14,529 nt of DNA. It comes from Alistipes sp. Its GTDB lineage: Bacteria > Bacteroidota > Bacteroidia > Bacteroidales > Rikenellaceae. The translations under genes were made by a program, and so were the position numbers. Within the stretch, counting starts at the first letter, position 1; the number at the start of each line of letters is the position of its first letter. Below, piece after piece: positions 1-14,529 of this stretch. The notes beneath the pieces are model-generated. The model made no database searches. It saw nothing but the letters and a program-made list of their open reading frames with translations, and was not told the DNA's origin. The stretch lies in assembly GCA_017559685.1 (NCBI GenBank), contig JAFYQY010000216.1:1-14529 (forward strand), written 5' to 3'.

Positions 1-2
1 AC

Positions 3-515: not shown

Positions 516-525
516 AAAATCGTTC

Positions 526-627
526 TGATAAGTTCTTTTTGCACGAATCTACGGAGAGCGGAATGCTCACATAGGCGTACTATGCTCCGCTTCCGCTCCC
601 TTGTTTCGCACAAAAATAATCTTATCA
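526..627. repeat. Imperfect long inverted repeat downstream of the EF-G gene
   Basis: TGATAAG at 526-532 pairs with CTTATCA at 621-627. The pairing continues inward through T-rich/A-rich stretches (535-547 with 605-616) to GAGAGCGGA (555-563) against the TTCCGCTCC stretch (591-599). A smaller stem CATAG/CTATG (570-574, 580-584) lies at the centre. It could fold in mRNA as a 3' structure or be an intergenic palindromic element. No T-run follows it, so a simple intrinsic terminator is unlikely. Confidence 0.55.
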
Positions 628-652
628 TAAGCAATTTTGAGATAAGACGAGT

Positions 653-724
653 TTTAGTGAATTTAATGAATTTAGCGAGTTTAGTAGAAATCTCTAATTT
701 CCCTAATTTCCCTAAATTCCCTAA
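653..724. repeat. Degenerate 9-nt tandem array with inverted halves
   Basis: Eight consecutive 9-mers run through this stretch. The first four resemble TTTAGTGAA (653-688). The last four resemble TTTCCCTAA (689-724), which in reverse complement is a phase-shifted TTTAGGGAA, so the second half is a diverged inverted copy of the first. By hand alignment about 25 of 34 positions of the two arms are complementary. No coding function is apparent; the open frame on the other strand here is a by-product of the 9-nt period. Confidence 0.6.
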
Positions 725-808
725 CAACTAAATATAAAAATGTTTTGAAGAAGACTAAAGTTTAGATAATTCCTAACCAACCATTTTTTTCATAAGCATT
801 TTTTGAGG

Positions 809-845
809 GAGAGGGCAGAGTCGTGAGATTCCGCCCTCTCTATTT
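809..845 (+). terminator. Possible terminator hairpin upstream of dprA
   Basis: GAGAGGGC (809-816) and GCCCTCTC (833-840) form a perfect 8-bp stem with a 16-nt loop, followed by TATTT. The U-tract is poor and the hairpin lies about 300 bp past the EF-G stop, so termination is plausible but not certain. Confidence 0.4.
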
Positions 846-876
846 AATAGTTAGTAAAGAGAAGAGCGTAGAGTGC

Positions 877-925
877 AATTTTTAATTTTTAATTTTCAAT
901 TTTTAATTTAAGATTGTTATCTTTG
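877..925 (+). promoter_or_regulatory. dprA promoter: TATCTTTG -7 element with 7-nt-periodic A/T tract
   Basis: TATCTTTG at 918-925 matches the Bacteroidetes -7 consensus TAnnTTTG. Directly upstream (877-911) is a run of TTTTTAA-like units covering the place of the -33 element, which has no clear TTTG. The -7 element ends only 4 nt before the ATG at 930, so the expected transcription start falls at or next to the start codon and the mRNA may be leaderless. Confidence 0.7.
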
Positions 926-929
926 TATT

Positions 930-2033
930 ATGATATTGGACGAACTTGCTTTGACCTTTGTTCCCGAGCTCGGAGTGCGTGGTGTAGCCCATCTTATGGA
1001 TATATACAGCGATGCCGAGGAGGTCTATGCGCAGAAGGAGCACAACCTTATTCTGTGTGCCGAACTGCGCAAGGATATTGCTACCCGTATCGTTCAAAAG
1101 GCGGGCTATGCGGAGGCGGAGCGAGAACTTCGATACTGCGAGTCGCAGGGTATAAAGATAAACTCCTACAACGACTGCGACTATCCTCCGCTGTTGCGTG
1201 AGGCTGCGGATAGACCGCACATTGTCTACTCGATGGGCGACATCGAGGCGTTGCAGTCGAAACATATCCTCTCGGTGGTGGGTACACGACGCATCAGCTC
1301 CTATGGCGAGAGCGTCTGCGCCAAGTTTATCCCCGAGTTGGCGGAGATGTTCCCCGACTTGGTGGTAGTTAGTGGCTTGGCCTTTGGCGTAGATGCTGCG
1401 GCACATCGTGCAGCGCTGGCTGCGGGAGTCAGAACGGTGGGTGTTGTGGCAAATAAGTTACCCGACGTAACCCCTGCGCAACATCGTAACCTCGCCAAGG
1501 ATATGCTCGATAATGGTGGTGCTATAATCACTGAACTCCACTCGCAGAGCAAGCAGAATGGCTCGTACTATATCCCACGCAATCGCATTATTGCGGGCGT
1601 GGCAGAGGGTTTGCTGGTTGTCGAGTCGCCTTCGAATGGAGGCTCGCTCTCGACGGCTAAGGCGGCGGACGCCTACTCTCGCACTATTATGGCGGTGCCT
1701 GGTCGTATTACCGACTCCCGCTCGGAGGGCACAAACCACCTCATAAAGACAAACGTGGCACAACTTGTAACTTCCGCAGAGGATATGGCGGCGGCTTTGG
1801 GCTGGGAAGTGCCTGGGGCAATGCCCGAGAAGATGCACTTTGCACCTCACGAGATAACACCTAAGGAGCGAGCAGTTTATAATGCTATTGCCGATAATTC
1901 GGATGGCTTAACACTCGAGAAGGTTGCCGATGCGACCGCCTTGCCTATCGCCGAGGTGAGTGCAATATTGTTAAATATGGAGTTGTCGGGTATGGTGCGA
2001 CAACTGCCTGGAAAGGTCTATGTGATATGCTGA
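930..2033 (+). CDS. dprA: DNA processing protein DprA
   Basis: This 367-residue DprA/Smf protein would bind incoming single-stranded DNA and load RecA during natural transformation. The Rossmann-like core is complete: VGTRRISSYG (117-126), SGLAFGVDAAAH (148-159), an IPRNRIIAG segment (215-223), GSLSTA (238-243), a VPG turn (256-258) and EGTNHLI (266-272). Residues about 308-367 look like the C-terminal winged-helix domain (KERAVYNAI ... LLNMELSGMVRQLPGKVYV). The N-terminal 100 residues fit the usual SAM-like region, which supports the ATG at 930 even though the promoter lies almost on top of it. It overlaps the next gene by 7 nt, so the two are probably translationally coupled. DprA is common in Bacteroidetes regardless of proven competence, so its presence alone does not show transformability. 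Confidence 0.95.
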   Translation: MILDELALTFVPELGVRGVAHLMDIYSDAEEVYAQKEHNLILCAELRKDIATRIVQKAGYAEAERELRYCESQGIKINSYNDCDYPPLLREAADRPHIVYSMGDIEALQSKHILSVVGTRRISSYGESVCAKFIPELAEMFPDLVVVSGLAFGVDAAAHRAALAAGVRTVGVVANKLPDVTPAQHRNLAKDMLDNGGAIITELHSQSKQNGSYYIPRNRIIAGVAEGLLVVESPSNGGSLSTAKAADAYSRTIMAVPGRITDSRSEGTNHLIKTNVAQLVTSAEDMAAALGWEVPGAMPEKMHFAPHEITPKERAVYNAIADNSDGLTLEKVADATALPIAEVSAILLNMELSGMVRQLPGKVYVIC

Positions 2034-2815
2034 TAGATACCCATTCACACATATATGACGAGGCTTTCGACAATGATCGCAACGAGGTTGTCGAGCGTGC
2101 TCGTGCCGAAGGTGTTGAGCGCATCATTCTCCCTGCGATCGATGGCGAGAGCAATGAACGCCTGTTCGACTTGTGCCGAGCGTGTGGCGACTATGTGGTG
2201 CCGTTGATGGGACTGCATCCGACATCGGTAAACGATAACCCTCGCTGGCGTGAGGAGTTGGCCGAGGTGGAAAAACTGCTTGCAAACCCTCCACAGGGTA
2301 TCGATCGCTTCTATGGCGTTGGCGAGATAGGCTTAGATCTCTATTGGAGTCGTGATTGGCAGGCGGAGCAGACCGAAGCCTTTCGTGCACAACTCGATAT
2401 GGCGTTGAAGTACAATCTGCCTATCGTGGTGCATACCCGTGATGCGTGGGAGGAGATGGCCTCCATCATCGAGGAGTATCGAGAAAAGGGCTTACGAGGT
2501 GTCTTTCACGCCTTCTCGGCCGATGTGGCGATGTATGAGCGACTCAGGGAGTGTGGCGACTTTGTCTTCGGTATCGGCGGTGTTGTGACCTTCAAAAAGA
2601 GCGCTTTGGCCGAGGTTGTCAAGGCTATGCAACTGGAGGATTTGGTGGTCGAGACCGATGCGCCATATCTTACGCCCGCACCCTACAGAGGCACTCGCAA
2701 CGAGTCGTCTTATGTGCGCTTTGTGGCGCAGAAAATAGCCGAGTTGAAGGGCGTTGAATACGAGGTTGTTGCCGAGACGACAACCGCAAATGCAAAACGA
2801 ATTTTTGGAATTTAG
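2027..2815 (+). CDS. TatD-family metal-dependent DNase
   Basis: A 262-residue TIM-barrel amidohydrolase of the TatD family, which acts as a Mg2+-dependent 3'-5' exonuclease/DNase in several bacteria. The metal-binding set is intact: DTHSH with H6 and H8, GEIGLD with E100, H136 in the IVVHTRD segment, H161 in the FHAF segment, and D211 in the ETDAPYL segment. The length is typical of the family, and the start codon overlaps the end of dprA by 7 nt. It is the middle gene of the dprA-tatD-ansA operon and lies 6 nt before ansA. Bacteria usually carry several TatD paralogues (TatD, YcfH, YjjV types) and I cannot tell which this is. A link with DNA handling alongside DprA is inference from position. 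Confidence 0.93.
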   Translation: MLIDTHSHIYDEAFDNDRNEVVERARAEGVERIILPAIDGESNERLFDLCRACGDYVVPLMGLHPTSVNDNPRWREELAEVEKLLANPPQGIDRFYGVGEIGLDLYWSRDWQAEQTEAFRAQLDMALKYNLPIVVHTRDAWEEMASIIEEYREKGLRGVFHAFSADVAMYERLRECGDFVFGIGGVVTFKKSALAEVVKAMQLEDLVVETDAPYLTPAPYRGTRNESSYVRFVAQKIAELKGVEYEVVAETTTANAKRIFGI

Positions 2816-2821
2816 AGCGAT

Positions 2822-3853
2822 ATGAAAAAGGCTTCGATTTTAATTATCTACACGGGAGGAACGATTGGTATGCGCCGTAACGAGAACGGAACGCTTGTAC
2901 CATTCGACTTCAACACTATCGAGCAGGAGTTTCCTGCAGTAAGAAACTTGAACGTCGATATCTCGGTCTACAAGATGGAGGCTATCGACTCCTCGAATGT
3001 AACCCCTTCCCGCTGGTGCGAATTGGCACACATTATAGCCGATAATTACGACAACCACAACGGTTTTGTGGTGTTGCACGGCACCGATACGATGTCCTAT
3101 ACAGCCTCGGCGCTGAGCTTTATGCTCGAGAATCTCTCGAAGCCTGTGATATTTACGGGTAGCCAGATTCCGATGGGTATCCTGCGCACCGATGGCCGTG
3201 AGAATCTTATTACTGCTATCGAGTTGGCTGCAGCCACAAACTCTGCAGGCGAGCCGTTAGTGCCTGAGGTGGCTCTCTATTTCCAGAATCGCCTTTTCCG
3301 TGCAAACCGCACATCGAAACACTCGGCCGAGGCGTTGAGTGCCTTCGAGTCGAGAAACCTCGCCCCATTGGCAGAGGTGGGCGTGAATATCGTCTACAAC
3401 CATTCGGTCATAAATAGATCACGCAGTAGTGAGCCGCTGCGAGTGAACGATAAACTCAACGACAAGGTTGTTATCATAAAACTCTTCCCGGGTTTGTCGC
3501 AGGCCTCGCTCAAGGCTATGCTCTCGATCGATGGCGTGCAGGGCGTTGTGCTCGAGACCTATGGTACGGGAAATGCTCCTACGGCAGATTGGTTTATCGA
3601 TACTTTGCACGACGCAATTTCACGTGGTATTGCCGTTGTGAATATCACCCAATGTCAGGGTGGAGCCGTAGCTATGCACCTCTACGAGACAGGCCGTAAA
3701 TTACAGGATTTGGGTGTGATTTGTGGCTACGATATGACCACCGAGGCTGCCGTTACCAAACTTATGTGGCTGCTTGGTAGTGGTTTGGAGGGTGCCGAGT
3801 TGGCTCAGGCGATGGCAACATCGTTGCGAGGAGAGCTCGAAAATGCACTTTAA
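2822..3853 (+). CDS. ansA: Type I (cytoplasmic) L-asparaginase
   Basis: A 343-residue asparaginase that hydrolyses L-asparagine to aspartate and ammonia. The family signatures are clear: YTGGTIG (10-16, nucleophile Thr within it), HGTDTM (86-91, giving the second Thr-Asp pair), TASALSFMLENL, FTGSQIPMG, and NRTSK supplying the expected catalytic lysine. It aligns along its whole length with the E. coli AnsA pattern as I remember it. There is no signal peptide, which agrees with the cytoplasmic type I rather than the periplasmic type II enzyme. It is the last gene of the operon, 6 nt after the TatD gene. No convincing intrinsic terminator is visible after the stop; an AT-rich inverted repeat (3888-3909) is the only candidate structure. 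Confidence 0.96.
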   Translation: MKKASILIIYTGGTIGMRRNENGTLVPFDFNTIEQEFPAVRNLNVDISVYKMEAIDSSNVTPSRWCELAHIIADNYDNHNGFVVLHGTDTMSYTASALSFMLENLSKPVIFTGSQIPMGILRTDGRENLITAIELAAATNSAGEPLVPEVALYFQNRLFRANRTSKHSAEALSAFESRNLAPLAEVGVNIVYNHSVINRSRSSEPLRVNDKLNDKVVIIKLFPGLSQASLKAMLSIDGVQGVVLETYGTGNAPTADWFIDTLHDAISRGIAVVNITQCQGGAVAMHLYETGRKLQDLGVICGYDMTTEAAVTKLMWLLGSGLEGAELAQAMATSLRGELENAL

Positions 3854-3918
3854 CGACTAAAAATTGCCTTTTTTGCCACCAAAGTCATTATAAATTTATT
3901 AATTTATAAAAAAATATA

Positions 3919-3926
3919 TATCTTTG
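3919..3926 (+). promoter_or_regulatory. Promoter -7 element of the OmpA/TPR lipoprotein gene
   Basis: TATCTTTG fits the TAnnTTTG consensus. An AT-rich inverted repeat, TTATAAATT and AATTTATAA (3888-3896 and 3901-3909), occupies the region just upstream; no TTTG -33 box is evident. The leader to the ATG at 4013 would be about 80 nt. Confidence 0.7.
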
Positions 3927-3931
3927 TGGCG

Positions 3932-3951
3932 AAATAGGTACATACCTATTT
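3932..3951 (+). promoter_or_regulatory. Perfect 9-bp palindrome at the predicted transcription start
   Basis: AAATAGGTA (3932-3940) and TACCTATTT (3943-3951) are exact inverted copies separated by 2 nt. The first arm begins 6 nt after the -7 element, at the expected +1. It could be a 5'-terminal mRNA stem-loop that protects the transcript or an operator for a dimeric repressor. Confidence 0.6.
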
Positions 3952-4012
3952 AGTCGGAATCGAATAGAAATAGATAGACAATTTTTTAACTTTTAATTAT
4001 TCAAACAACATT

Positions 4013-5701
4013 ATGAAAAATCTTTTTAAGATGACATTGGTTCTTGCAGCTGTTGCTTTGACCGTTACAGGTTGTAACTGCTTCAAGAAGATGGCGAAGG
4101 ATCCTTCGGCTATCACAATCACTTGCACCCCTGACGTGCTTGTTTTGAACAACGGTAAGGTTGTTGCTGACATCGCTGCAGAGGTTCCTGCAAAGTATTT
4201 CAACAAGACCGCTTCGTTGAAGGTTACTCCTGCTCTCGTTTATGAGGGTGGCGTTACTAAGGGTAACACTATCATCCTCCAGGGTGAGAAGGTTGCTGAC
4301 AACGGTATTCTCGTAAAGAATGGCGAGAAGGTTAGCATCAAGCGTCAGGTAGAGTTCGCTTACAAGCCAGAGATGAAGCTCTCGAACCTCGTACTCATCG
4401 TTGAGGTTAAGTGCAAGAGCGGTAAGTGCAAGGAGTTTACTCTTATCAACGCTAACACAGGCGAGATTATCGGTGCAGATACAAAGCTTACTCCTGCAGA
4501 GTACGGTTTGTCGATTGCAAAGGGTATCAACACTTTGCAGAGCGAGATCAACTTCTCGGAGGCTATGCAGCCTGCAGCTAACAACTACAAGCGTGTAACT
4601 ACCGTTGTAACTAAGGCTGACATCGTTTACCAGATCAACTCTTCACGTGTATCGAAGAAGGCTGTTAATACTGAGGAGTTGAAGGCTTTGAAGGCTGGTG
4701 TTGAGGCTAACAAGACTAACGATCGTGTTGCTCAGTCGCTCTACGTTAACGGTTACGCTTCGCCAGATGGTCCAGAGAAGTTCAACGACAAGTTGTCGGA
4801 GAAGCGTTCTAAGACTGGTTTGAAGGCTGTTGAGAAGTTGCTTGCTGACGCAGGTTTGAACATCGATGCTGCTGCATACGGTGAGGACTGGGAGGGCTTC
4901 CAGGCTGCTGTTGCTGCTTCGAACATCGCTGATAAGGATCTCATTCTTCAGGTTTTGAAGATGTACTCGTCGAGCGCAGAGCGTGAGGCTGAGATTCGCA
5001 ATATGGCTACAGTATTCAAGTCACTCAAGACTGACGTTTTGAAGAAGCTCCGTCGTGCTCAGGTTGTTAACAGCGCAGATGTAACCGGCTGGAGTGACGA
5101 GGAGATGATTGCTCTCATCAAGGAGGGTAAGGTATCTACTTTGAAGCTCGAGGAGTTGCTCCACATTGCAACTGTTTGCGACAGCGTTGCTGAGACTGCA
5201 TTGCTCGAGGCTACTAAGTCGGGTGATGCTCGTGCTTGGAACAACCTCGCATTGGTTTACGCTAAGGCTGGCAACTACGACAAGGCTGTTGAGTGCTTGA
5301 ACAAGGTTGACAACACAGTTTCTGCTGAGTTGAACAACAACTACGCTTTGATCTACGCTGCAAGCGGTGACCTCGCAAAGGCTGAGGGTTATGCTGCTAA
5401 CGCATCTGCTGAGACTAAGGCTATGGTTGCTGCTGCTAAGGGTGACTATGCTGCTGCTTCTCAGACTTTGAAGTCGGGTTACAACGCTGCAGTTGTAAAC
5501 TTGCAGAATGGCAACCTCGCAGCTGCTAAGCAGTGCATCGCTAGCGATATGTCTGCAAAGGCTGATTACCTCCGTGCTGTTATCGCTTGCAAAGAGGGCG
5601 ATGTAAACGGTGCTAAGGCTCAGCTCAACAGCGCAGTATCTAAGGATGCTTCGTTGAAGGAGAAGGCTGCGAAGGATGTAAATCTTGCATCTCTCAAGTA
5701 A
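4013..5701 (+). CDS. Lipoprotein with OmpA-like and TPR regions
   Basis: A 562-residue predicted lipoprotein. The signal peptide ends in a lipobox (VTGC, lipidated Cys 21) and a second Cys follows at 23. Residues about 35-190 look like a beta-rich domain. Residues about 200-345 include NGYASPDGPEKFNDKLSEKR (246-265), the Bacteroidetes version of the OmpA-C core (GxxSxxG ... N ... LSxxRA), which suggests peptidoglycan or envelope association. Residues about 405-545 are helical TPR-like units (WNNLALVYAKAGNYDKAVECL, NNYALIYAASGDLAKAEGYA and further degenerate copies). Lys is almost always AAG, and Ala is mostly GCT, which points to very high expression. It is monocistronic, with its own promoter (3919-3926) and a strong terminator (5750-5795). 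The envelope-scaffold role is inferred; I do not know a named homologue. Confidence 0.85.
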   Translation: MKNLFKMTLVLAAVALTVTGCNCFKKMAKDPSAITITCTPDVLVLNNGKVVADIAAEVPAKYFNKTASLKVTPALVYEGGVTKGNTIILQGEKVADNGILVKNGEKVSIKRQVEFAYKPEMKLSNLVLIVEVKCKSGKCKEFTLINANTGEIIGADTKLTPAEYGLSIAKGINTLQSEINFSEAMQPAANNYKRVTTVVTKADIVYQINSSRVSKKAVNTEELKALKAGVEANKTNDRVAQSLYVNGYASPDGPEKFNDKLSEKRSKTGLKAVEKLLADAGLNIDAAAYGEDWEGFQAAVAASNIADKDLILQVLKMYSSSAEREAEIRNMATVFKSLKTDVLKKLRRAQVVNSADVTGWSDEEMIALIKEGKVSTLKLEELLHIATVCDSVAETALLEATKSGDARAWNNLALVYAKAGNYDKAVECLNKVDNTVSAELNNNYALIYAASGDLAKAEGYAANASAETKAMVAAAKGDYAAASQTLKSGYNAAVVNLQNGNLAAAKQCIASDMSAKADYLRAVIACKEGDVNGAKAQLNSAVSKDASLKEKAAKDVNLASLK

Positions 5702-5702
5702 A

Positions 5703-5832
5703 AAATTCTTGTGATAAGCCGCAATCTGCGGCACATCCCAAAAAGTAAAGACCTCCGGGCTGTACGTTGTGTACTATCCCGGAGGTCTCTCTTTTGCGAT
5801 GTACCACATCTCACGGCTTCTGACAAGAATTT
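5703..5832. repeat. Long inverted repeat enclosing the terminator
   Basis: Positions 5703-5737 are an inverted copy of 5798-5832: 27 of 35 positions are complementary by hand count, and several mismatches would be G-U pairs in RNA. The ends are AAATTCTTGT and ACAAGAATTT. The left arm also holds its own stem GCCGCA/TGCGGC (5718-5732). The intrinsic terminator lies inside the repeat. Confidence 0.65.
5750..5795 (+). terminator. Intrinsic terminator of the lipoprotein gene
   Basis: GACCTCCGGG (5750-5759) and CCCGGAGGTC (5778-5787) form a perfect 10-bp GC-rich stem. The loop contains a small GTAC/GTAC stem, and TCTCTTTT follows. It lies 48 nt after the stop codon. Confidence 0.92.
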
Positions 5833-5956
5833 AGCGATGTCTGTATTGTTTGCCTTGCTCTCATCTGCTTAAAAATCGTTTTTTTGTTTGTAGCGATGCA
5901 CCACATCTCACGCCTTCTGACAAGAATTTAGTGATGTCTGTATTGTTTGCCGTGCT
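5796..5956. repeat. Two 64-nt direct repeats, 97 nt apart
   Basis: Copy 1 is 5796-5859 and copy 2 is 5893-5956. They match at 60 of 64 positions without gaps; both start GCGATG, contain CTTCTGACAAGAATTTAG and end in TGCT. The 33-nt spacer is T-rich. Both copies also match, inverted, the 35-nt stretch right after the lipoprotein stop (5703-5737). No open frame or RNA gene is recognised here. Confidence 0.85.
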
Positions 5957-5982
5957 AAAAGACGTTTTTGCGGTTGAGAGCT

Positions 5983-6011
5983 AAAAAAAATAGGACTCAA
6001 CCGAGCCCTAT
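5983..6011 (-). terminator. Intrinsic terminator of the pssA-porin-transglycosylase operon
   Basis: Read on the - strand, ATAGGGCTC and GAGTCCTAT (one G-U pair) form a 9-bp stem with a 4-nt GGTT loop, followed directly by eight T residues. It lies about 60 nt after the transglycosylase stop at 6073. Confidence 0.88.
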
Positions 6012-6072
6012 CTAATCCTATTAAGCACTGCAGGTGTGCATCCTATCAAATCCCATTAACTTCTATCAGCCT

Positions 6073-6777
6073 CTATTCGATATTGGCGATAGTCTCGTTT
6101 TGCGCCTTGTAGAGATTGTAGAGGTGCATAACCTTATCCACATACTCGAGCGTCTCTTTGCTGCCGTTAAATGTGCCCGATTGCACCACCTCGTGGTTGG
6201 CAAACTCGGGGTCGTTGAGCCAGCTCAAAAAGAGTCTTACCGACTGCCATTTATTAGCATCAGCATCGTAGTGCTTGGCCAATCGTCGTGCATCGGCAAT
6301 GCGTGTATAACCTGCGTTATAGCAGGCGAGAAGAAATCGCAACTGCTCCTCTTCGCTCACCTCTTGCGATAGGTTCAACATACTCTTATTCTCGAGCAAC
6401 AACTGCGCCGCAATCTCCACGTTTGTGCGGGGATCGAATAGCTCGCTGCGCTCGTAGCCCATATTCTGTGCCACAAACGGCATTATCTGCATCAGGCCGA
6501 TAGCACCCGCAGGCGATATTGCATCGAAGCGAAATACCGACTCGGCACGGGCGATAGCAGCCAGAAGTCTCCAGTCGAGTTTGTACTTTTCGCCCATATC
6601 CTTGAAGAGAGCGTCGTATTGCGAGATTGAGAACTTCGCCATTCTCTCGAGCTCTGCGGCACGGCGCTCTGCAACCTGATGCTCTACGACAGCGTTTGTC
6701 GAATAGAGTGCAGAGGCGATGCCTACCGAGACAAAGAGTGCCGGTGCTACAACTTTAGCAATAGATTTTTTTCGCAT
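6073..6777 (-). CDS. Membrane-anchored lytic transglycosylase (SLT family)
   Basis: A 234-residue protein with an N-terminal hydrophobic segment (about residues 8-30, after MRKKS), which is a signal anchor or signal peptide. A lysozyme-like SLT domain follows (about 55-200). The catalytic glutamate is E79 in ARAESVFRFDAISPAGAIGLMQIMP with the downstream GLMQIMP signature (94-100), and the ACYNAG segment (151-156) is the family's conserved A-YNAG motif. The domain cleaves peptidoglycan glycan strands to 1,6-anhydro products. The fold resembles the catalytic half of MltF, but the N-terminal solute-binding domain of MltF is absent. It is the last gene of the operon, 11 nt after the porin stop, and just before a strong terminator. 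Sharing a transcript with an outer-membrane protein and a phospholipid enzyme suggests an envelope-biogenesis operon. Confidence 0.92.
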   Translation of the reverse strand: MRKKSIAKVVAPALFVSVGIASALYSTNAVVEHQVAERRAAELERMAKFSISQYDALFKDMGEKYKLDWRLLAAIARAESVFRFDAISPAGAIGLMQIMPFVAQNMGYERSELFDPRTNVEIAAQLLLENKSMLNLSQEVSEEEQLRFLLACYNAGYTRIADARRLAKHYDADANKWQSVRLFLSWLNDPEFANHEVVQSGTFNGSKETLEYVDKVMHLYNLYKAQNETIANIE

Positions 6778-6788
6778 AACCTAAATGT

Positions 6789-8972
6789 TTAATCGTAGAA
6801 GGTCCACGAGATTCCAAACTTAAACATTCCGGGGTTAAGTGGGTATCGAGCTACGGCAAAGTACTCTTGGTTGCCGAATAGTCCGTAATTGAGGTGCTGG
6901 TACTTCAACAAGATACGCATACGCTTCCACTTTGCAGCGATGAAGGCGTCGAGATATGGGTAGTTACCCACCTCGGTCTCGTTCTGGTTGTAGAATACCG
7001 ATAGAGCAGGGTTGTATCCTTGCGCATAGTAGCGGGTGTTGAATCGTCCGTCCAAACCAACCTGCATACGCAATACATCACGCTTTATCCAGAACTCATA
7101 GTAGTACGAGAGGAAGGCCGAAGCGAGAGGTACAGGCACTACGTGTCGATTCGACGTGAGCTGCACCAGCACTCTATGGTCGAGGTGTAAACCCTTAATA
7201 TTAAAATTCTTCTGGGCGTAGATGCTCGTCACACTCACAGCACCATCGTGCTGTGTTGGCTTGCAATCTGCACCGTAGTATATCTTATCACGCAAAATGC
7301 TCTGCCAGAAGCCCAACTCAATGCCGTAGTCAGGTACCGTAAAGGCAATATTAAATCGTGTCTCGCCCTCCTTCTTGAAGTCGTTGTTCCAACGATAGTG
7401 GTTCGAGTCCCAATGATTCTGCCAATAACCAGGCGATGTCATCGACTCAGAGAATGAGCCCGACAGCGTAAGAGGCTTCTTCTTGATGTAGGCGCTGAAC
7501 GATGCTCGTGCGCTAACCTCGTAGTCACCCCCACGATATCCCGAAGGGTAAATCTTGAAGTTGGCACCCCAATTGGCATATTTGCGAATCTTGCCCTGCA
7601 CACCCGTGTAAGCAAACCAAGCTACCTTGTTATCCTTCTTGATTTTGCCCGAGAGGTAGTCTTGCTGACCGAATTGCGAATAGGTGTGGACATCCACTCC
7701 CAAACCTCCGTCGATAGTACCTACAGCGCCGTTACGATCCCACGGCTGAGCCTGTACGAAGACTCTGTTTGTGATGATGCGCTCGTAGGTCGAGTCTCGA
7801 GTCTTCTCGGGGTTGTAGAACCAATCTTTATAATATGTATCGGTCTTCGAGTTGAATGTTCCGTTCGGGTTACGCTCGTAGCGCTCGTCTTTGTAGGTTG
7901 CATACTTATCGGTGTAGACCTTGCTCCACTCGTTGTACTCGAAGGTGTGGCCCACATATATGGCTGGCAAGTCCGACATCGAGAAGTCTCGCTCGGTCAT
8001 TCTCACAAACGGAATACCTATAGACTGCTTGATGAAGAAGGCGTTGTTGCGATATGTGTTCTTTGCTTCGGCCTTAGCCAAGCGCATCGGCACTCCCGAC
8101 GGCATCTCGAACAATGTATCCGTGATAGCCCAATCGCCAACTACACCACCGCTCTCCTGCTGTTCCACCTTGTTGTGGGTGTAGCCCGCAAATATGGAGT
8201 AGCGACGTCCCGTGTGCGCCACAGTACCTGCAAAGTTGTTATTTCTCACACGTGAAACGTCGTATCTGCTACGAGAGCCTCGTGAGCGGTAGTTCAGCGA
8301 CACCGAGGTTGATGGGTTGATATTCTGCGACGCCATAATCTCGAAATGCTCCTCACGGTAACGCTTCTGTCCCGACTCGAGGTAGGTCATCCAGATGTAT
8401 GGGTGCTTCATATTGTAGAATGGCACATTCTCGGTATTGTAGGAGTAGGCGTCGTATGGCTGCGAGAAGGTGAACTCTTTCGAGCGGGTGCGCTCAAAGT
8501 AGTTTACCTCGGTCGAAGCCTGACCCAAACCGCCCACCGAGTTGTTACCCAATCGCTTGTGGTAGTGCGGATAGTCCAATCGCCAATTTACCAAAGTTGT
8601 GTCTATAGGCGACACCTTCACGGTGTTGTAGTCACGGTCGATGTTCCACTTGAAGTTGCGCAACGCACGAATCGAGTCGCTGAAGAAATAGGACTCCAAC
8701 GGCTTGCGTGGCTTTTTCTTCTTTGTTGTGTCGGCATTTCCCTCGGGAATAGGGTTGCCGTTAGCGTCTACCTGCTGACCATTAGGGTCGGTCGTGGCGG
8801 GCAGACCATTTGGGCCTAAACCCTGCTGTTGCTGTCGCTGGGCATTCATTAGCGAGCGTGCATCCTGTGCAGATGCAAAGCCGACAACCGCAACCATAAC
8901 GGTCACGGTCGCTATCACACGCCATATTTTTGCCCCGATTTGCACTCGTTCTATCTCTTTTGTACCATCCAA
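6789..8972 (-). CDS. Putative outer-membrane beta-barrel porin of the Bacteroidetes type
   Basis: A 727-residue protein with a signal peptide whose hydrophobic core (about 17-33) ends at an ASA-Q cleavage site near residue 35. A Gln/Asn/Pro-rich low-complexity linker (about 44-80) and a basic KKKKPRKP stretch follow. The rest is rich in aromatic, alternating beta-strand-like segments and ends in FKFGISWTFYD, a typical barrel terminus with aromatic residues. The layout matches the 'putative porin' family of Bacteroidetes (Porin_10-like); the substrate is unknown. The ATG at 8972 lies inside pssA, giving a 22-nt overlap. An alternative GTG at 8945, just after the pssA stop, would give a more usual signal peptide with a shorter n-region. 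The gene is co-transcribed with pssA upstream and the transglycosylase downstream. Confidence 0.85.
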   Translation of the reverse strand: MDGTKEIERVQIGAKIWRVIATVTVMVAVVGFASAQDARSLMNAQRQQQQGLGPNGLPATTDPNGQQVDANGNPIPEGNADTTKKKKPRKPLESYFFSDSIRALRNFKWNIDRDYNTVKVSPIDTTLVNWRLDYPHYHKRLGNNSVGGLGQASTEVNYFERTRSKEFTFSQPYDAYSYNTENVPFYNMKHPYIWMTYLESGQKRYREEHFEIMASQNINPSTSVSLNYRSRGSRSRYDVSRVRNNNFAGTVAHTGRRYSIFAGYTHNKVEQQESGGVVGDWAITDTLFEMPSGVPMRLAKAEAKNTYRNNAFFIKQSIGIPFVRMTERDFSMSDLPAIYVGHTFEYNEWSKVYTDKYATYKDERYERNPNGTFNSKTDTYYKDWFYNPEKTRDSTYERIITNRVFVQAQPWDRNGAVGTIDGGLGVDVHTYSQFGQQDYLSGKIKKDNKVAWFAYTGVQGKIRKYANWGANFKIYPSGYRGGDYEVSARASFSAYIKKKPLTLSGSFSESMTSPGYWQNHWDSNHYRWNNDFKKEGETRFNIAFTVPDYGIELGFWQSILRDKIYYGADCKPTQHDGAVSVTSIYAQKNFNIKGLHLDHRVLVQLTSNRHVVPVPLASAFLSYYYEFWIKRDVLRMQVGLDGRFNTRYYAQGYNPALSVFYNQNETEVGNYPYLDAFIAAKWKRMRILLKYQHLNYGLFGNQEYFAVARYPLNPGMFKFGISWTFYD

Positions 8973-9661
8973 CGCACGGTCGAAACCACCATATATAGAA
9001 CGATGATCGCAGGAATTGCGTATAATTTAAGTAGACAAATTGCGAGTGCTGCGGTTGCGAGGAAGATGTAACGCACCTTATTTTTGCTCCATCCCAACGA
9101 CTTGAACTTGAACGAGAACATTCTCACAGGGCTGATCAACATAGCGGCAACCAATACCGAAATGAGTACCAACCACTCAACCTCCACAACGATGCCGTTG
9201 CGCTGGCACAAGGCAGCCAACGATCCGAGCAATATCGCCGAAGCTGGGGTTGGAAGACCCTCGAACTCCTCGGTCTGAGTCTCGTCGATGTTGAACTTTG
9301 CAAGGCGAAGTGCCGACAACGCTGCAACGATAAGCGGAATGTAGCAGAGAACATCAAACCATACACCGCTTACGCCGAATGCCGAAGGCATAGACTTGCA
9401 AATTACGGTCATCGCAATTGCAGGAGTAGCACCGAACGAAACCATATCGGCCAACGAGTCGAGCTGTACACCGATAGCAGAGTACTGCTTGAGAAGTCGG
9501 GCTGTGAGTCCGTCGCAGAAGTCGGCCACTGCCGATGCGATAATAAAGATGAATGCCAACTGTAAGTCGTTGTAAACCAACGATGATACGATAGCACCGA
9601 TGCCGCACAACAAGTTGATGAGCGTGATGCAGTTTGGAATTGAAAAGAGTTTAATCTTCAT
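8951..9661 (-). CDS. pssA: CDP-diacylglycerol-serine O-phosphatidyltransferase
   Basis: A 236-residue integral membrane enzyme that makes phosphatidylserine from CDP-diacylglycerol and serine, the first step to phosphatidylethanolamine. The CDP-alcohol phosphotransferase motif is complete: D47, D50-G51, A54-R55, G64, D68 and D72. Several strongly hydrophobic segments follow, about six predicted in total. The opening IPNCITLINLLCGIGA is typical of the Bacteroidetes/Bacillus-type PssA rather than the E. coli PLD-like enzyme. A phosphatidylglycerophosphate synthase shares the motif but usually has a different N-terminus, so PssA is preferred. It is the first gene of the operon, 20 nt after a TATCTTTG element, and overlaps the porin start by 22 nt. 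No psd (decarboxylase) gene is in the window. Confidence 0.92.
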   Translation of the reverse strand: MKIKLFSIPNCITLINLLCGIGAIVSSLVYNDLQLAFIFIIASAVADFCDGLTARLLKQYSAIGVQLDSLADMVSFGATPAIAMTVICKSMPSAFGVSGVWFDVLCYIPLIVAALSALRLAKFNIDETQTEEFEGLPTPASAILLGSLAALCQRNGIVVEVEWLVLISVLVAAMLISPVRMFSFKFKSLGWSKNKVRYIFLATAALAICLLKLYAIPAIIVLYMVVSTVRWMVQKR

Positions 9662-9681
9662 TTTCTACACATTTTATCACG

Positions 9682-9721
9682 CAAAGATAAGAAACTTTTA
9701 ATTAAAAATTAAAAATTAAAA
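9682..9721 (-). promoter_or_regulatory. pssA operon promoter with A/T tract
   Basis: The - strand carries TATCTTTG (9689 to 9682), 20 nt before the pssA ATG. Upstream, 9721-9696 reads as repeated TTTTTAA units ending 6 nt before the -7 element. The arrangement is nearly identical to that of dprA (7 nt there). Confidence 0.75.
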
Positions 9722-9762
9722 GTGAAAAATGTCGAAAGTCGCTAACAGAGTCTCCGAAACCG

Positions 9763-9790
9763 CACAAAAAAAGACGAGAATTTCTCGTCT
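9763..9790 (-). terminator. Intrinsic terminator of the rubrerythrin gene
   Basis: On the - strand AGACGAGA and TCTCGTCT (9790-9783 and 9779-9772) form an 8-bp stem with a 3-nt loop, followed by a run of at least seven T. The stem begins immediately after the stop codon at 9791-9793. Confidence 0.9.
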
Positions 9791-10369
9791 CTAATAGTTC
9801 TCCTTCTTCGGTTCGAAGTAGGCCTGAGGGTGGTGACATACGGGACATTGGCGTGGCGCCTCTTTGGCCTTGCAGACATATCCGCAGTTGCGACACTGCC
9901 ACCAGATATCGCCCTCTCGGCGGAAAAAGTTGCCGTCAGTAATGCGTGAGAGCAACTTTAGGTAGCGATTTTCGTGCTCCATCTCTACGGTCAGGACCAT
10001 ACGAAAGGCCGTTGCAACCTCGGGAAAACCCTCCTCCTCGGCGATAATGGCAAAAGTGGGGTAGAGAGTATCCCACTCCTCTCGCTCACCCTCGACGGCG
10101 GCGAGGAGATTCTCGTAGGTCGAACTTATGCGACCAGCAGGGTAGGTTGCGTCGTGTAGGGTAGCTTTTCCACCTTCGAGCAACTTGAAGAATATCTCGG
10201 CGTGCTCCAGCTCCTGTTGTGCTGTCTCGTCGAATACGGCTGCAATCTGCTCGTAACCCTCTTTTCGGGCACGCTTTGCGAAGAATGTGTAGCGGCTGCG
10301 AGCCTGCGACTCGCCAGCAAACGCCTTCAATAGATTTTGTTCGGTGCGTGTTCCTTTGATACTTTTCAT
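9791..10369 (-). CDS. rbr: Rubrerythrin
   Basis: A 192-residue non-haem iron protein that reduces hydrogen peroxide in anaerobes. The N-terminal four-helix diiron domain has E20 and two ExxH motifs (E53-H56 and E129-H132). The C-terminal rubredoxin-like domain has C159/C162 and C175/C178, which bind the single Fe(SCys)4 centre. The start chosen is the ATG at 10369 (MKSIKGTRTEQNLL), the usual rubrerythrin N-terminus; the frame stays open upstream for 28 more codons, but those residues do not belong to the family. It is a single-gene unit with its own terminator, divergent from the DGR target gene. I see no good TAnnTTTG element in the 122-bp divergent gap on this strand. Its presence fits an obligate anaerobe. 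Confidence 0.96.
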   Translation of the reverse strand: MKSIKGTRTEQNLLKAFAGESQARSRYTFFAKRARKEGYEQIAAVFDETAQQELEHAEIFFKLLEGGKATLHDATYPAGRISSTYENLLAAVEGEREEWDTLYPTFAIIAEEEGFPEVATAFRMVLTVEMEHENRYLKLLSRITDGNFFRREGDIWWQCRNCGYVCKAKEAPRQCPVCHHPQAYFEPKKENY

Positions 10370-10435
10370 TTCGTGTCGATATTTTAGAAATTGTAGCAAG
10401 GTCAAGGGCAATATTTGTGCCGATAATCCATATTC

Positions 10436-10466
10436 TTGCAAAAACAAAAACAAATTATTACCTTTG
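10436..10466 (+). promoter_or_regulatory. Promoter of the DGR target gene
   Basis: TACCTTTG (10459-10466) is a -7 element, and TTG at 10436-10438 lies 20 nt upstream as a possible -33. The leader to the ATG at 10492 would be about 20 nt. The frame is open from an ATG at 10417, but that lies upstream of the promoter and before the signal peptide, so it is not the start. Confidence 0.7.
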
Positions 10467-10491
10467 TAGTAATAATCTTTTCCTAAATATA

Positions 10492-12678
10492 ATGAAGCGA
10501 CTTTTTATTTGCATATTATCACTATTTGTGCCTCTTTTTGTATTGGCGCAACAGAGTCAAAAGCTCCTCGAAATCGACGAGAGTAGTTTCCGCCCTGAGC
10601 AGACAGATGTGCTCTCGGGTGTGGCAATCGATAAAATTGCGAGGGATCCCTCACAGCGTCCGTGTGCCCGCATCAAGATGCATATCAACCGTATGACCAC
10701 CGACGAGATTCGTGGTGTGGTGGTGCGAACAGTTGGTGGCAATGTCGTATTGACCAAGCAGATTGTTGCAGCCGAGGGTAATGGTTTAATTATTGAGATG
10801 ACAGCCAAGGAGCAGACTCGCTTCTACATACATCACGACAAGTATGGCGATTCGAACGAGGTGTCGCTCCATCTCGAGGGCGACAAGGAGTACCGCATCA
10901 ACGCACAACTCAATTTCTTGTATTCGATTGTCGTAGCCTCGAATACTATTGATGCAGAGGTCTACTTAGATGATGCGTACAAGGGGCGCATAGACCAAAA
11001 TTATATGCTCTCAATAAATGGTGTGACTCCAGGCAAGCATAAAATAAAATTGCAGCAGGGTGCACTCGTTAGCGAACAGGAGGTCAATGTTAGCAGTTCC
11101 GATATCTCGTTTCGTATCAATATCAATCAAGCAACAGCACGCCCTCAATATGTAATCTTCGAGGTGGAACCTAAAGATGCAGAGGTTATGGTTGGCGATA
11201 AGAGCCACGCTCCCGATGGCGATGGTATCGCAATGTTGGTGCTTAATAACGGCTCCTACAATTATTCTGTTTCGGCAAAGGACTACTACCGCGAATCGGG
11301 AACATTTGTAGTCAGCGGCGCAAAGGTTGTGAAGAGGGTAATCTTGCGCCCTGCGCACGGCTGGCTTAGCGTGTCGGGCTCGGGCGCATTGAATGGTGCG
11401 AAGGTCTATGTCGACGGTGCACTCTTGGGTAGCGCACCTGTCAAGAGCGACAAACTCGCCAGCGGTACACACACCGTTCGCATCATTAAGGGTCTCTACA
11501 AAACCTTCGAGGGTAAGGTTTCTATCAGCGACGGTCAAACACTCAGCTATGCCCCTGCGCTTGTTGCCGACTTTGCAAATGTTTCGCTCAATGTGGGCAA
11601 CGATTGCGACATCTATGTAAATGGAGAGCGGAAGGGCAAAAATTCGTGGCGTGGCGACCTCGCTACGGGTGCCTATATTTTTGAAGCACGCAAGGCGGGA
11701 CACACCACAACCTCTATCTCTAAGACTATCTCGGCAACTCCTGCTCAGCAGAAGTACGACATCCCTATGCCGAAGCCGGTTTTGGGCTATCTCAATGTGC
11801 TGAGCACACCGAATATGGCCGATGTATATATCGATGACAAACTCGTTGGTCAAACACCTCTTATGCTCGATTTGATTGTCGGCGAGCACACTGTTAAGGT
11901 CAGCAAAGGCAATCTTAGTATCGAGCCTCAGACCATCACTATCGCCGAGGGCAAAACCGAGAATCTGAATCTTACTTTAGTGGAGGTAAAACCAAAGAGC
12001 CAGAACTACACCGAGACTGCCAAAGACCTCAATATGAAGATGATATATGTTGAGGGAAGTACCTTCTCGATGGGCTCAACAGCTGGAGGAAGTGACGAAA
12101 AGCCCGTACATAGCGTAACCCTCGATTCCTACTATATTGCCGAGACCGAGGTTACCCAGGCGCAGTGGCGTGCCATTATGGGGAACAATCCTTCATATTA
12201 TAAAGGCGATAATCGCCCTGTGGAAAATGTGAGTTGGTTCGAAGCACAGAAGTTCTGCGAAAAACTTAGCGCAATGACAGGCAAGAAGTATGTGCTACCA
12301 ACCGAAGCGCAATGGGAGTATGCGGCTCGTGGTGGCAACAAGAGTAAAGGTTATACCTATAACGGAAGCAATGATATAGGCAAAGTTGCAAAGTACAATT
12401 CATCGGACGGACATAACAATGTTAAGTCAAAACAACCAAATGAACTTGGCATTTACGATATGAGTGGAAATGTATGGGAGTGGTGCTCAGATTGGTATGG
12501 CAGCTATAGCTCGTCGAGCCTGGCAAACCCTACGGGACCTTCAAGCGGCAGCAATCGTGTACTCCGTGGTGGTAGTTGGAGCAACATCGCTGGGAACTGT
12601 CGTGTTCCGAATCGGTACAGCAGCGGTCCGTCGAATCGTAACGGCATCATTGGCTTCCGCTTTGTTTGCCTTCCATAG
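10492..12678 (+). CDS. DGR target: secreted PEGA-repeat protein with variable FGE/C-type-lectin domain
   Basis: A 728-residue protein starting at ATG 10492. The signal peptide (MKRLFICILSLFVPLFVLAQ) would be cut near residue 20; there is no lipobox. Residues about 141-211, 219-287, 288-357, 362-428 and 430-500 are five PEGA-like beta-sandwich repeats (patterns such as VYVDGALLGSAP and VYIDDKLVGQTPL), probably a stalk. Residues 515-728 form an FGE/SUMF1 domain: MIYVEGSTFSMGS, ETEVTQAQW, LPTEAQWEYAARGG, GIYDMSGNVWEWCSDWYG, RGGSW (692-696) and GFRFVC (721-726). Residues 686-728 are encoded by the variable repeat. Eight residues differ from the template: S697, I699, G701, Y709, S710, S711, G712, G718 and I719 include the changed sites (nine codons altered). 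The paired active-site cysteines of true formylglycine-generating enzymes are not in this loop, so a ligand-binding role is favoured over an enzymatic one. Ligand unknown. Confidence 0.93.
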   Translation: MKRLFICILSLFVPLFVLAQQSQKLLEIDESSFRPEQTDVLSGVAIDKIARDPSQRPCARIKMHINRMTTDEIRGVVVRTVGGNVVLTKQIVAAEGNGLIIEMTAKEQTRFYIHHDKYGDSNEVSLHLEGDKEYRINAQLNFLYSIVVASNTIDAEVYLDDAYKGRIDQNYMLSINGVTPGKHKIKLQQGALVSEQEVNVSSSDISFRININQATARPQYVIFEVEPKDAEVMVGDKSHAPDGDGIAMLVLNNGSYNYSVSAKDYYRESGTFVVSGAKVVKRVILRPAHGWLSVSGSGALNGAKVYVDGALLGSAPVKSDKLASGTHTVRIIKGLYKTFEGKVSISDGQTLSYAPALVADFANVSLNVGNDCDIYVNGERKGKNSWRGDLATGAYIFEARKAGHTTTSISKTISATPAQQKYDIPMPKPVLGYLNVLSTPNMADVYIDDKLVGQTPLMLDLIVGEHTVKVSKGNLSIEPQTITIAEGKTENLNLTLVEVKPKSQNYTETAKDLNMKMIYVEGSTFSMGSTAGGSDEKPVHSVTLDSYYIAETEVTQAQWRAIMGNNPSYYKGDNRPVENVSWFEAQKFCEKLSAMTGKKYVLPTEAQWEYAARGGNKSKGYTYNGSNDIGKVAKYNSSDGHNNVKSKQPNELGIYDMSGNVWEWCSDWYGSYSSSSLANPTGPSSGSNRVLRGGSWSNIAGNCRVPNRYSSGPSNRNGIIGFRFVCLP
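12547..12678 (+). repeat. DGR variable repeat (VR)
   Basis: This matches the TR at 14230-14361 over 132 bp without gaps. Adenine-to-other changes relative to the TR lie at 12581, 12592, 12593, 12620, 12623, 12625, 12643 and 12644 (A to G) and at 12587, 12616 and 12647 (A to T). The only other change is T to G at 12615, which is silent (Arg CGT to CGG). Invariant ends flank the variable core: 34 nt at the 5' side (12547-12580) and 31 nt at the 3' side (12648-12678), the latter the candidate initiation-of-mutagenic-homing region. The repeat ends exactly at the stop codon. Confidence 0.97.
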
Positions 12679-12687
12679 TTTAAGGCG

Positions 12688-12746
12688 GCCATTTGCAGAT
12701 GGCGAGCAGGTCAAGTGGAACAAGACCTGCGAGTGATGCAAATGGC
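12688..12746. other. Large two-stem hairpin/cruciform after the VR
   Basis: The outer stem pairs GCCATTTGCA (12688-12697) with TGCAAATGGC (12737-12746), 10 bp perfect. The inner stem pairs GCAGGTC (12706-12712) with GACCTGC (12724-12730), 7 bp perfect, with an 11-nt loop. It begins 9 nt after the target stop codon. An A-run, not a T-run, follows it, so it is not a + strand terminator. DNA hairpins at this place next to the VR are known to promote target recognition in the Bordetella phage DGR; the same role here is inferred. Confidence 0.85.
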
Positions 12747-12761
12747 AAAAAAAATAATTAT

Positions 12762-13223
12762 ATGCAACTAAAAATATTTGATATCCTTGCATCGGCTCCC
12801 GAGCAAGAGTTAGAAATAGTGAATAAGTTTATCCGAGGACACAAGGTTGTCGACATCGACAAGCAGTTCTATGTGTCGTCGGATAATGTAGGTCATTGGT
12901 CGCTCTGTATAACATACCTTCAACAGCCAAATGCGCAACAGTCGGGCGTTCAGTTCGAAAAACGTGACAAAATCGATTATAAGGAGGTGTTGAACGCTGA
13001 GGATTTTGAGAAATTCTCTAAACTCAGAGCAATTCGCAAACAGCTTGCTGCAGACGAAGCAGTTCCTGCATATGCTGTGTTTACTGATGCTGAGTTGGCT
13101 CAAATTGCTCAAATGCCTTCTGTTGAGAGTTCGTTGATGAAAAAGATAACAGGTATTGGCGACAAGCGTGTTGCAAAGTATGGCAATCTGCTTTGCGAAA
13201 TGTATAACAACCTATCAGAATGA
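12762..13223 (+). CDS. HRDC-domain DGR accessory protein
   Basis: A 153-residue protein. Residues about 82-150 form an HRDC domain, the helical nucleic-acid-binding module of RecQ helicases and RNase D: FEKFSKLRAIRKQLA, the VPAYAVFTDAELAQIAQ core, then MKKITGIGDKRVAKYG, which carries the conserved GIG(D/E)xRxxKYG pattern. Residues 1-80 are not recognised. The start chosen is ATG 12762 (MQLKIFDILAS); the frame is open from 12693, but that would lie inside the hairpin. The gene overlaps the RT start by 4 nt (ATGA). HRDC proteins are one of the described accessory types in DGRs and probably do the nucleic-acid-binding job that Avd does elsewhere; no avd gene is visible here. Codon use is more AT-rich than in the housekeeping genes to the left. 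Confidence 0.88.
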   Translation: MQLKIFDILASAPEQELEIVNKFIRGHKVVDIDKQFYVSSDNVGHWSLCITYLQQPNAQQSGVQFEKRDKIDYKEVLNAEDFEKFSKLRAIRKQLAADEAVPAYAVFTDAELAQIAQMPSVESSLMKKITGIGDKRVAKYGNLLCEMYNNLSE

Positions 13224-14221
13224 AGCGTGTAGGCAACCTTATGCCCGCCATTGCCGAGATGGATAATCTTATGCTTGCCTTCTGCAAAGCTCGACGTGGC
13301 AAGCAGTGTAAACGTGATGTAGTTGATTATTCGCTCAATATTACCGAGAATCTTCAGAGCCTACGCGAACGAATAATCAATGGAACTTTAAGGGTAGGCA
13401 ACTATCACTACTTCGAGATTTTTGACCCCAAGAAACGTACAATTTGCGCAGCCTCGTTCGAAGAACGAATTGTACACCACGCAGTGATGAATGTGTGCAA
13501 AGAGCGATTCGAAAGACATCTTATATTTGATACCTATGCTACTCGAGAGGGTAAGGGTGTTTATGCAGCCATTGATAGAGCGCGTGGTGCGATGCTCAAA
13601 TATCGATATGTTGCCAAGCTCGATGTACGAAAGTATTTCGACTCGATAAATCACGATGTGTTAAAAAATAAGTTGGCGAGATTGTTCAAGGATAGAGAAC
13701 TATTGCAACTTTTTGGTAGTATAATAGATTCGTATGAGGTTTTGCCCAATGTGGGTATTCCAATCGGAAATCTGACGAGCCAATACTTTGCGAATTACTA
13801 TCTTTCGGCACTCGATCACTATGTTAAAGAAGTTTTGCGTGTGCCTGTATATGTGCGATATATGGATGATATGTTGCTATTTGCCGACGACCGCAGTGAG
13901 TTGCGAGCCATCGTATCAAATGTCGAGGCTTATCTCGCAGATAATCTACATCTTAGCTTAAAGCCTGCGCAGGTTAGCAACGTGAATAGTGGAGTCTCGT
14001 TTCTTGGCTATAGATTGTTGCCACATCGTCTGCTACTTAATAGACGTAGTAAACTGCGCTTGGTCAAAAAATTCTATAGTTATAACTCGATGTTAGAGAG
14101 TGGGAAGTGGAATGAAAATACTTATCTACAACACATTCAACCCCTATTTGCATTTGCCGATAAAGCACAAACTCTAAGCTTGAGAAAGCGGTTGTGTGAA
14201 AGTTATGCGGAAGGCGGTTAA
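13220..14221 (+). CDS. DGR reverse transcriptase
   Basis: A 333-residue reverse transcriptase. The catalytic aspartates are D135 ([11 protein letters not shown]) and D216-D217 ([11 protein letters not shown]). The [10 protein letters not shown] segment (179-188) is the RT motif whose IGNxxSQ form is typical of DGR enzymes. FLGYRL (261-266) follows as motif 6/7. Further support comes from the [13 protein letters not shown] region (78-90), also standard in DGR RTs. There is no maturase or integrase domain, so it is not a group II intron ORF. It would copy the TR RNA into cDNA with errors at adenines, together with the HRDC protein encoded just upstream. The ATG overlaps the HRDC stop by 4 nt. 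The TR begins 8 nt after the stop, so the TR RNA may be part of the same transcript. Confidence 0.97.
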
Positions 14222-14229
14222 AGGAAGTT

Positions 14230-14361
14230 GGCAGCAATCGTGTACTCCGTGGTGGTAGTTGGAACAACAACGCTAAGAACTGTCGTGTTCCGAATCGTAA
14301 CAACAACAGTCCGTCGAATCGTAACAACAACATTGGCTTCCGCTTTGTTTGCCTTCCATAG
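14230..14361 (+). repeat. DGR template repeat (TR)
   Basis: This is the invariant donor for the VR, transcribed and reverse-transcribed. In the target reading frame it encodes ten AAC codons, three of the AAC groups being NNN triplets, plus one AAG and one AGT at the mutable sites. AAC is the codon DGRs prefer, since adenine changes at its first two positions give many amino acids and no stop. By my count it holds about 35 adenines; 11 differ in the VR. An 18-nt block (14291-14308) is repeated exactly at 14315-14332, a period of 24 nt. The boundaries of the RNA itself cannot be read from the sequence. Confidence 0.96.
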
Positions 14362-14362
14362 C

Positions 14363-14388
14363 TTATGGCGGTTGGATTTCCGCCTTAA
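14363..14388 (+). other. Hairpin just after the TR
   Basis: TTATGGCGG (14363-14371) and CCGCCTTAA (14380-14388) form a stem with one T-T mismatch and an 8-nt loop. It begins one base after the end of the TR homology. It may mark the 3' end of the TR RNA. Confidence 0.6.
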
Positions 14389-14429
14389 ACAAATCGCAGT
14401 TCGCTCTGTTCGTTAGAGAGAATAGAAAA

Positions 14430-14525
14430 AAGAGAGATGAAATCTCCTATAGTAGCAGTGATAGTAGCCTTGTGCGAATTCTCTGCTACTTAGTTTATAC
14501 GATCTCTTTCTTTGGTTGTTTTTTT
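14430..14525 (+). terminator. Possible structured 3' end of the DGR transcript
   Basis: A nested structure: AGAGAT (14434-14439) with ATCTCT (14503-14508) outside, and AGTAGCAG (14452-14459) with CTGCTACT (14484-14491) inside. A T-rich stretch (14509-14525) follows. It resembles a long terminator, but the loops are large. No gene is seen in 14389-14529. Confidence 0.35.
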
Positions 14526-14529
14526 AGTG

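Follow-up and report, generated by a model that had tools for sequence, protein, structure and literature searches.

How does a retroelement that writes one repeat over another tell the recipient from the template? For diversity-generating retroelements (DGRs) the answer is known from phage BPP-1, in which Avd and a small hairpin are involved. The same question is raised by a locus in a stretch of 14,529 nucleotides from Alistipes sp. (GenBank assembly GCA_017559685.1, contig JAFYQY010000216.1, positions 1 to 14,529), hereafter called the window, in which a reverse transcriptase (RT) and an HRDC accessory gene lie between a variable repeat (VR) and a template repeat (TR). We consider it very probable that this locus is a complete, cell-encoded DGR that rewrites the lectin-fold tip of its target protein, with a hairpin on the VR side as docking mark and the HRDC protein as candidate reader. 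The RT and its HRDC partner would reverse-transcribe TR RNA into cDNA that has random bases wherever the template has an adenine. Pasted over the VR, this cDNA would leave the TR unaltered and give a likely exported PEGA-stalk protein an ever-changing lectin-fold tip. The two-tier hairpin that stands just past the VR would single out this repeat, rather than the TR, as the recipient, and the foremost candidate for its reader is the HRDC protein.

Repeats, Reverse Transcriptase and Target

At an offset of 1683 the VR and TR align without gaps; 12 of their 132 positions are mismatched, and 11 of these are adenines in the TR. These counts are the same as those of the original prediction, which was made from the window's letters without database searches, and with 35 adenines among the 132 bases of the TR the bias has a hypergeometric p = 1.2e-6. 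The sole mismatch at another base (12615, T in the TR and G in the VR) is synonymous. Repeat identity extends to 12688 and 14371, adding two mismatches, both away from adenines, and across these 142 bp the bias has p = 1.5e-5; the window thus displays the clustering of mismatches at TR adenines by which DGRs are recognized.

The YMDD and IGNLTSQ motifs originally reported for the RT between the repeats are both intact and align with YMDD and IGSLTSQ of PDB chain 8ub7 (E = 7.1e-41), which we take to be the BPP-1 RT. The protein also matches the PHROG reverse transcriptase family (E = 4.6e-100) and, judged by these comparisons, is a DGR-type RT with an intact catalytic YxDD. The accessory gene of a DGR, avd or HRDC, appears here as HRDC by its match to PF00570, and the best match of the structure model of its product is the HRDC domain of RecQ (Foldseek E = 1.5e-3); the stop codon of this gene overlaps the start of the RT gene (ATGA, 13220-13223). 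The N-terminus of the HRDC protein (window 12762-13004, about residues 1-80) contains a conserved strand-helix-strand-strand domain, for which the fold search of the model gave no convincing match.

The tip of the target has as its best solved relative TvpA of Treponema denticola (2y3c, E = 1.4e-42), a match that places the C-terminal VR in a predicted C-type-lectin-like fold. Five PEGA-like repeats had been proposed before the variable domain; the repeat pattern recovers all five, and Pfam sees PEGA in three stretches. With its signal-peptide-like start, assigned by eye and not by a predictor, the target is probably an exported binding protein with a putative ligand. The features of the locus are collected in table 1.

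Table 1. Positions of the DGR features in the window
Feature	Position	Strand	Basis or remark
Target gene, 728 aa	10492..12678	+	Signal-peptide-like start (by eye), PEGA stalk, FGE/C-type-lectin-like tip
Stalk, five PEGA-like units (starts: residues 155, 230, 303, 372, 443)	10954..12006	+	Repeat pattern
FGE-sulfatase-like tip, residues 515-725	12034..12666	+	Pfam PF03781, E = 2.7e-47
VR, variable repeat (recipient)	12547-12678	+	Last codon is the target's stop; gapless TR alignment
Two-tier hairpin	12688..12746	+	Fold, z = -6.1 (130 nt after 12688); covariation in five loci
Hairpin outer arms	12688-12697 and 12737-12746	+	Fold
Hairpin inner arms, 11-nt loop	12706-12712 and 12724-12730	+	Fold
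HRDC accessory gene, 153 aa	12762..13223	+	Pfam PF00570, E = 3.9e-13, residues 85-146; ATG start 12762
RT gene, 333 aa	13220..14221	+	Pfam RVT_1, PDB 8ub7, motifs
RT motif IGNLTSQ	13763-13783	+	Residue 182
RT motif YMDD	13859-13870	+	Residue 214
TR, template repeat (donor)	14230-14361	+	Begins 8 bases past the RT stop codon

For comparison we kept 80 related loci out of 283 genome stretches carrying an RT relative. The closest RT among these 80 comes from an Alistipes metagenome-assembled genome (MAG; 63% identity), and the best relatives are from Bacteroidales genomes. A VR/TR pair of at least 90 bp is present in 65 of the 80 loci, 53 of which have the order VR-HRDC-RT-TR found in the window. 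Over the related loci 1076 of 1134 mismatches of the best pairs fall at TR adenines, a proportion biased upward by a pair finder that demanded at least 70% adenine mismatches; this bias does not touch the 11 of 12 counted in the window itself. All 80 loci contain HRDC and 76 an FGE match. The suggestion that target and accessory together form a little-described DGR subtype stands in part: the PEGA-FGE target recurs, with a stalk match in 6 of the 80 loci, whereas HRDC accessories are not only general in these loci but also named in the accessible text of DGR papers of 2011, 2016 and 2023 (PMC3240598, PMC4891356, PMC10053308).

A phage origin of the element was also considered and rejected: viral RT relatives are at most 39% identical among the 80 contigs kept of 121, and all 154 phage records lie below 60%.

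A Conserved Hairpin on the VR Side

The hairpin just past the VR, which like the stalk family described below was absent from the original prediction, was compared over 77 usable VR ends out of 80 (three have too little sequence downstream) and 75 TR start and end pairs, amounting to 69 distinct ends; one or more second VR/TR pairs, such as that of L068, may not include true VRs. Folding of the 130 nt past the VR ends gives a median z of -2.73, with 50 values below -2, as against a median of -0.60 and 12 values below -2 for the TR pairs (p = 4.6e-13). In five Alistipes-type loci bearing the RT, which were selected for holding the inner stem and from which the structure itself was read, the layout of the hairpin is shared while the outer stems differ, with 95.3% of cells paired (25-37% in slid controls); both partners have changed in 9 of the 17 pairs. 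Of the five measures other than pairing, three were reached by 0/500 shuffled alignments, and pair types by 2/500.

More distant loci (Saprospiraceae, Chlorobiaceae and other Bacteroidales) have the motif GAGGGACGA, which lies 46-87 nt past 39 of the 77 VR ends and within 200 nt of none of the 69 TR ends; of its 47 occurrences in the related loci 39 sit after VR ends, versus 0.49 expected. In the distant loci GAGGGACGA sits in the loop of predicted hairpins and does not vary, unlike the stems: 36 distinct hairpins of this kind present compensatory changes in all nine consensus pairs, each of which is broken or gapped in 3-10 of the 36. Of the 11 loci with several usable VR ends, 8 have separate copies of the hairpin loop at two or more of their VRs. 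The same motif is also present a short way upstream of the HRDC gene at L036:37, L043:103 and L045:60, where no VR was detected; the target has perhaps been cut off or missed at these sites.

A hairpin of the BPP-1 type (7-10 bp stem, 4-nt GRNA loop, 4-34 bp past the VR) follows none of the 77 VR ends, the window's included, by a criterion of at least seven perfect pairs in the stem, which may be too strict as it found the published type in just 1 of 58 viral loci. A contrast in hairpins between HRDC and non-HRDC loci is not established, the two-tier form occurring in 7 of the 58 viral loci versus 5 of 58 in shuffles. Rfam gives no match above gathering scores over positions 10400-14529.

Hypervariable Tips on a Shared Stalk

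Homologue search with the target retrieved 645 proteins, and among the 120 of them that were listed the same stalk is found with other tips by Pfam accession, which we take to be LRR_5 and DUF1566, while several proteins of about 960-1040 aa have two FGE tips. The PEGA stalk is that of a family of paralogues whose tips can be exchanged. Within the genus, the stalk family around G001 has matches in 22 of 180 genomes, from 1 to 14 in each, and many of the tips are other than FGE.

Setting aside 33 of the 120 listed proteins without the anchor motif, and 4 of the 97 remaining tips with fewer than 39 of 43 columns, we aligned 93 tips, including that of the window. The 14 columns corresponding to AA codons of the TR are hypervariable, with an entropy of 2.6-3.3 bits, and K, E, Q, M and W make up 2.7% of their residues versus 23.6% in the part of the domain ahead of them. 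Codons of the form NNY cannot encode these five residues, and their depletion reads as a signature of adenine mutagenesis; one of the 14 codons is AAG, which is able to yield them. Third bases were compared in 31 FGE domains, kept from 40 matches after removal of duplicates and short alignments: codons equivalent to AAY end in C or T in 95% of cases in 20 tips with at least 55% identity to that of the window, drawn from both RT-bearing and RT-less genomes, and in 72% of cases in 11 more distant FGE domains, which are a mix of DGR and other domains.

Relatives without a Detected RT

Our RT query (E <= 1e-40) matches 11 of the 180 genomes of the genus, four at 57-63% identity and seven more distant at 36-43%, and none of these 11 is among the 22 that bear the stalk. 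A laxer search (E <= 1e-5) in 20 of the 22 stalk genomes (all but G135 and G173) yields one match of 29% identity. Twelve of these 20 genomes contain FGE domains (E <= 1e-20), at 22 places. G087 has three tips, two of them in one open reading frame of 1042 aa (C18, L146 / L192), in which each is diversified at the same codons. Compared in pairs, the three tips differ at 13, 12 and 9 codons, and the third-position changes number 1, 2 and 1. P0004, a listed relative of the two-tip protein, contains what by the name of its Pfam accession is presumably a LysM domain.

Neither TR nor RT was found in G087, where the DNA query retrieved three VRs only. Throughout the RT-less genomes a TR-peptide query gave just two weak short-frame matches, one in G059, which falls inside an FGE gene cut by the contig end, and one in G027, at 38% identity; the same query picks up TRs in all four RT-bearing genomes, G003 giving a weak signal and the other three a clear one. 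Unless an RT has been missed, the tips in genomes without a detectable DGR RT look like frozen VRs, and the tips of this family may thus outlive their mutator. In the four RT-less tips compared for the hairpin, the outer stem is interrupted in G087, both inner and outer stems are damaged in G027, and the structure is not seen in G127 and G051.

From these patterns we advance, tentatively and with less than even confidence, a more general proposal: HRDC-class DGRs of Bacteroidota and their neighbours would mark each recipient VR with a two-tier cruciform read by the HRDC protein, and this mark would erode after loss of the RT, leaving frozen hypervariable tips. The cruciform would consist of an outer stem, a bulge, an inner stem and a conserved loop of 8-12 nt, and docking would be unlike that by hairpin and Avd in phage.

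Alternative Explanations

Several observations weigh against our reading of the window. Present-day homing by the window's DGR is something that we infer from its sequence. The GAGGGACGA loop is missing from 38 of the 77 VR ends, among them that of the window, and a strict two-tier definition holds for 28 of the 77 VR ends (2 in shuffles) and also for 7 of the 69 TR ends (3 in shuffles). With a simple inverted-repeat score over 80 nt, VR and TR do not differ (63 loci, p = 0.27); this span cuts off many structures, which become visible on folding 130 nt. Tip column 31 is variable too (2.24 bits), and the window's TR has no adenine codon there. Among the RT-less relatives, a Pfam RT search finds some RT-like gene in 5 of 16 genomes (G055, G087, G127, G135 and G173), and 7 of 19 tips are followed by strong folds (z below -2, 130 nt), mostly single stems of other shapes, so that decay of the hairpin mark rests on few cases; the RT-like genes and these folds lower our confidence both in this reading and in the wider proposal.

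Such strong folds after RT-less tips, and the position of the hairpin after a stop codon, would also suit a transcription terminator or a stabilizer of the target's mRNA unrelated to homing. We deem this unlikely since the bases past the hairpin in the window are A and not T, the structure lies on the VR side and not on the TR side, and multi-VR loci have separate copies at their VRs; moreover, an invariant loop on changing stems is likewise found in phage DGR hairpins, as reported in the accessible text of PMC3240598. It is rather unlikely, though somewhat less so, that the apparently RT-less relatives have an RT that is unassembled or on another replicon and diversifies their tips in trans. 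The assemblies are fragmented and of unstated completeness, the G087 tips show few third-position changes beside their codon differences, and trans activity is proposed for incomplete DGR loci in the accessible part of PMC10907252; however, the laxer search that gave one distant match in 20 stalk genomes used a query that finds this type of RT in 4 of 180 genomes, and the DNA query in G087 recovered its VRs and nothing else. Retention of VR-like tips by relatives without a detectable DGR RT might further suggest that the window's element is itself intact in sequence yet silent, its VR being the frozen product of past homing. This we regard as distinctly improbable, given that the RT motifs, the HRDC frame, the TR and both hairpin stems are all intact, and a complete DGR with a VR-side docking mark remains our preferred explanation of the locus.

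Genomic Setting and Other DGRs of the Genus

The left-hand neighbours of the element look cellular, with genes of the TatD family and for asparaginase above cut-off and a DprA-like gene just under its cut-off. Together with the Bacteroidales relatives and the distance of viral RTs, they bear out the original view of a complete DGR encoded by the cell and equipped with a PEGA-FGE target. A neighbouring gene of 727 aa is 87% identical in G087, a genome from the genus of the closest MAG, which makes a host related to Alistipes probable; the neighbours there are collinear with those of the window, and no DGR is present in the 9.4 kb past the rubrerythrin gene, while the window has no right flank.

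Eight further DGR-type RTs of the genus (L135-L142) have 32-41% identity to that of the window, each with a VR/TR pair and with the TR upstream of the RT. No two-tier hairpin was seen by eye at these loci, and Pfam gave no match for six of their proteins (accessory candidates and targets). The targets P0014 and P0018 and the RTs P0124 and P0123 (88-89% identity) have longest contigs that are equal, at 16,827 and 25,077, which suggests the same target-RT linkage in sister species.

Comparison with Known Systems

The covarying two-tier hairpin provides a mutable handle on the role of the HRDC accessory, which makes this role testable, and it is a landmark by which DGR targets could be located in genomes, perhaps even where the RT itself has been lost. 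Judging from the stalk family, gut Bacteroidales can retain diversified tips once the mutator is gone.

A hairpin on the VR side is as such expected from the accessible part of published DGR work, in which phage hairpins have 7-10 bp and a 4-nt loop, the loop being constant and the stems variable (PMC3240598). The two-tier form and its loop were not met in the accessible part of the open-access literature on DGRs, and the one full text found to combine DGR with PEGA mentions PEGA in other proteins. HRDC accessories and FGE targets of DGRs are already in print, as the accessible text of four papers indicates (PMC3240598, PMC4891356, PMC10053308, PMC3521204).

The DGR of T. denticola TvpA resembles the window in its FGE/C-type-lectin target and HRDC accessory but has, in the accessible text of PMC4891356, its accessory gene between TR and RT, where the window has VR-HRDC-RT-TR; moreover, the window's tip is carried on a PEGA stalk. 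The chromosomal DGRs of Marichromatium and Thiohalocapsa similarly have several FGE tips or VRs per open reading frame and incomplete loci, as far as the accessible parts of PMC3521204 and PMC10907252 go, whereas the carriers in the window's group are PEGA-stalk paralogues of a gut Bacteroidales genus. The BPP-1 phage DGR shares with the window a related RT, adenine mutagenesis and a hairpin past the VR, but uses Avd where the window has HRDC, and its hairpin, with a stem of 8 bp and a 4-nt loop in the accessible text of PMC3240598, differs from the two-tier structure with an 11-nt loop found here. The core of the system is therefore of a known kind, HRDC-type DGRs with FGE targets being in print; what is new is the stalk family, whose tips may be frozen, and most of all the conserved two-tier hairpin that accompanies the VR.

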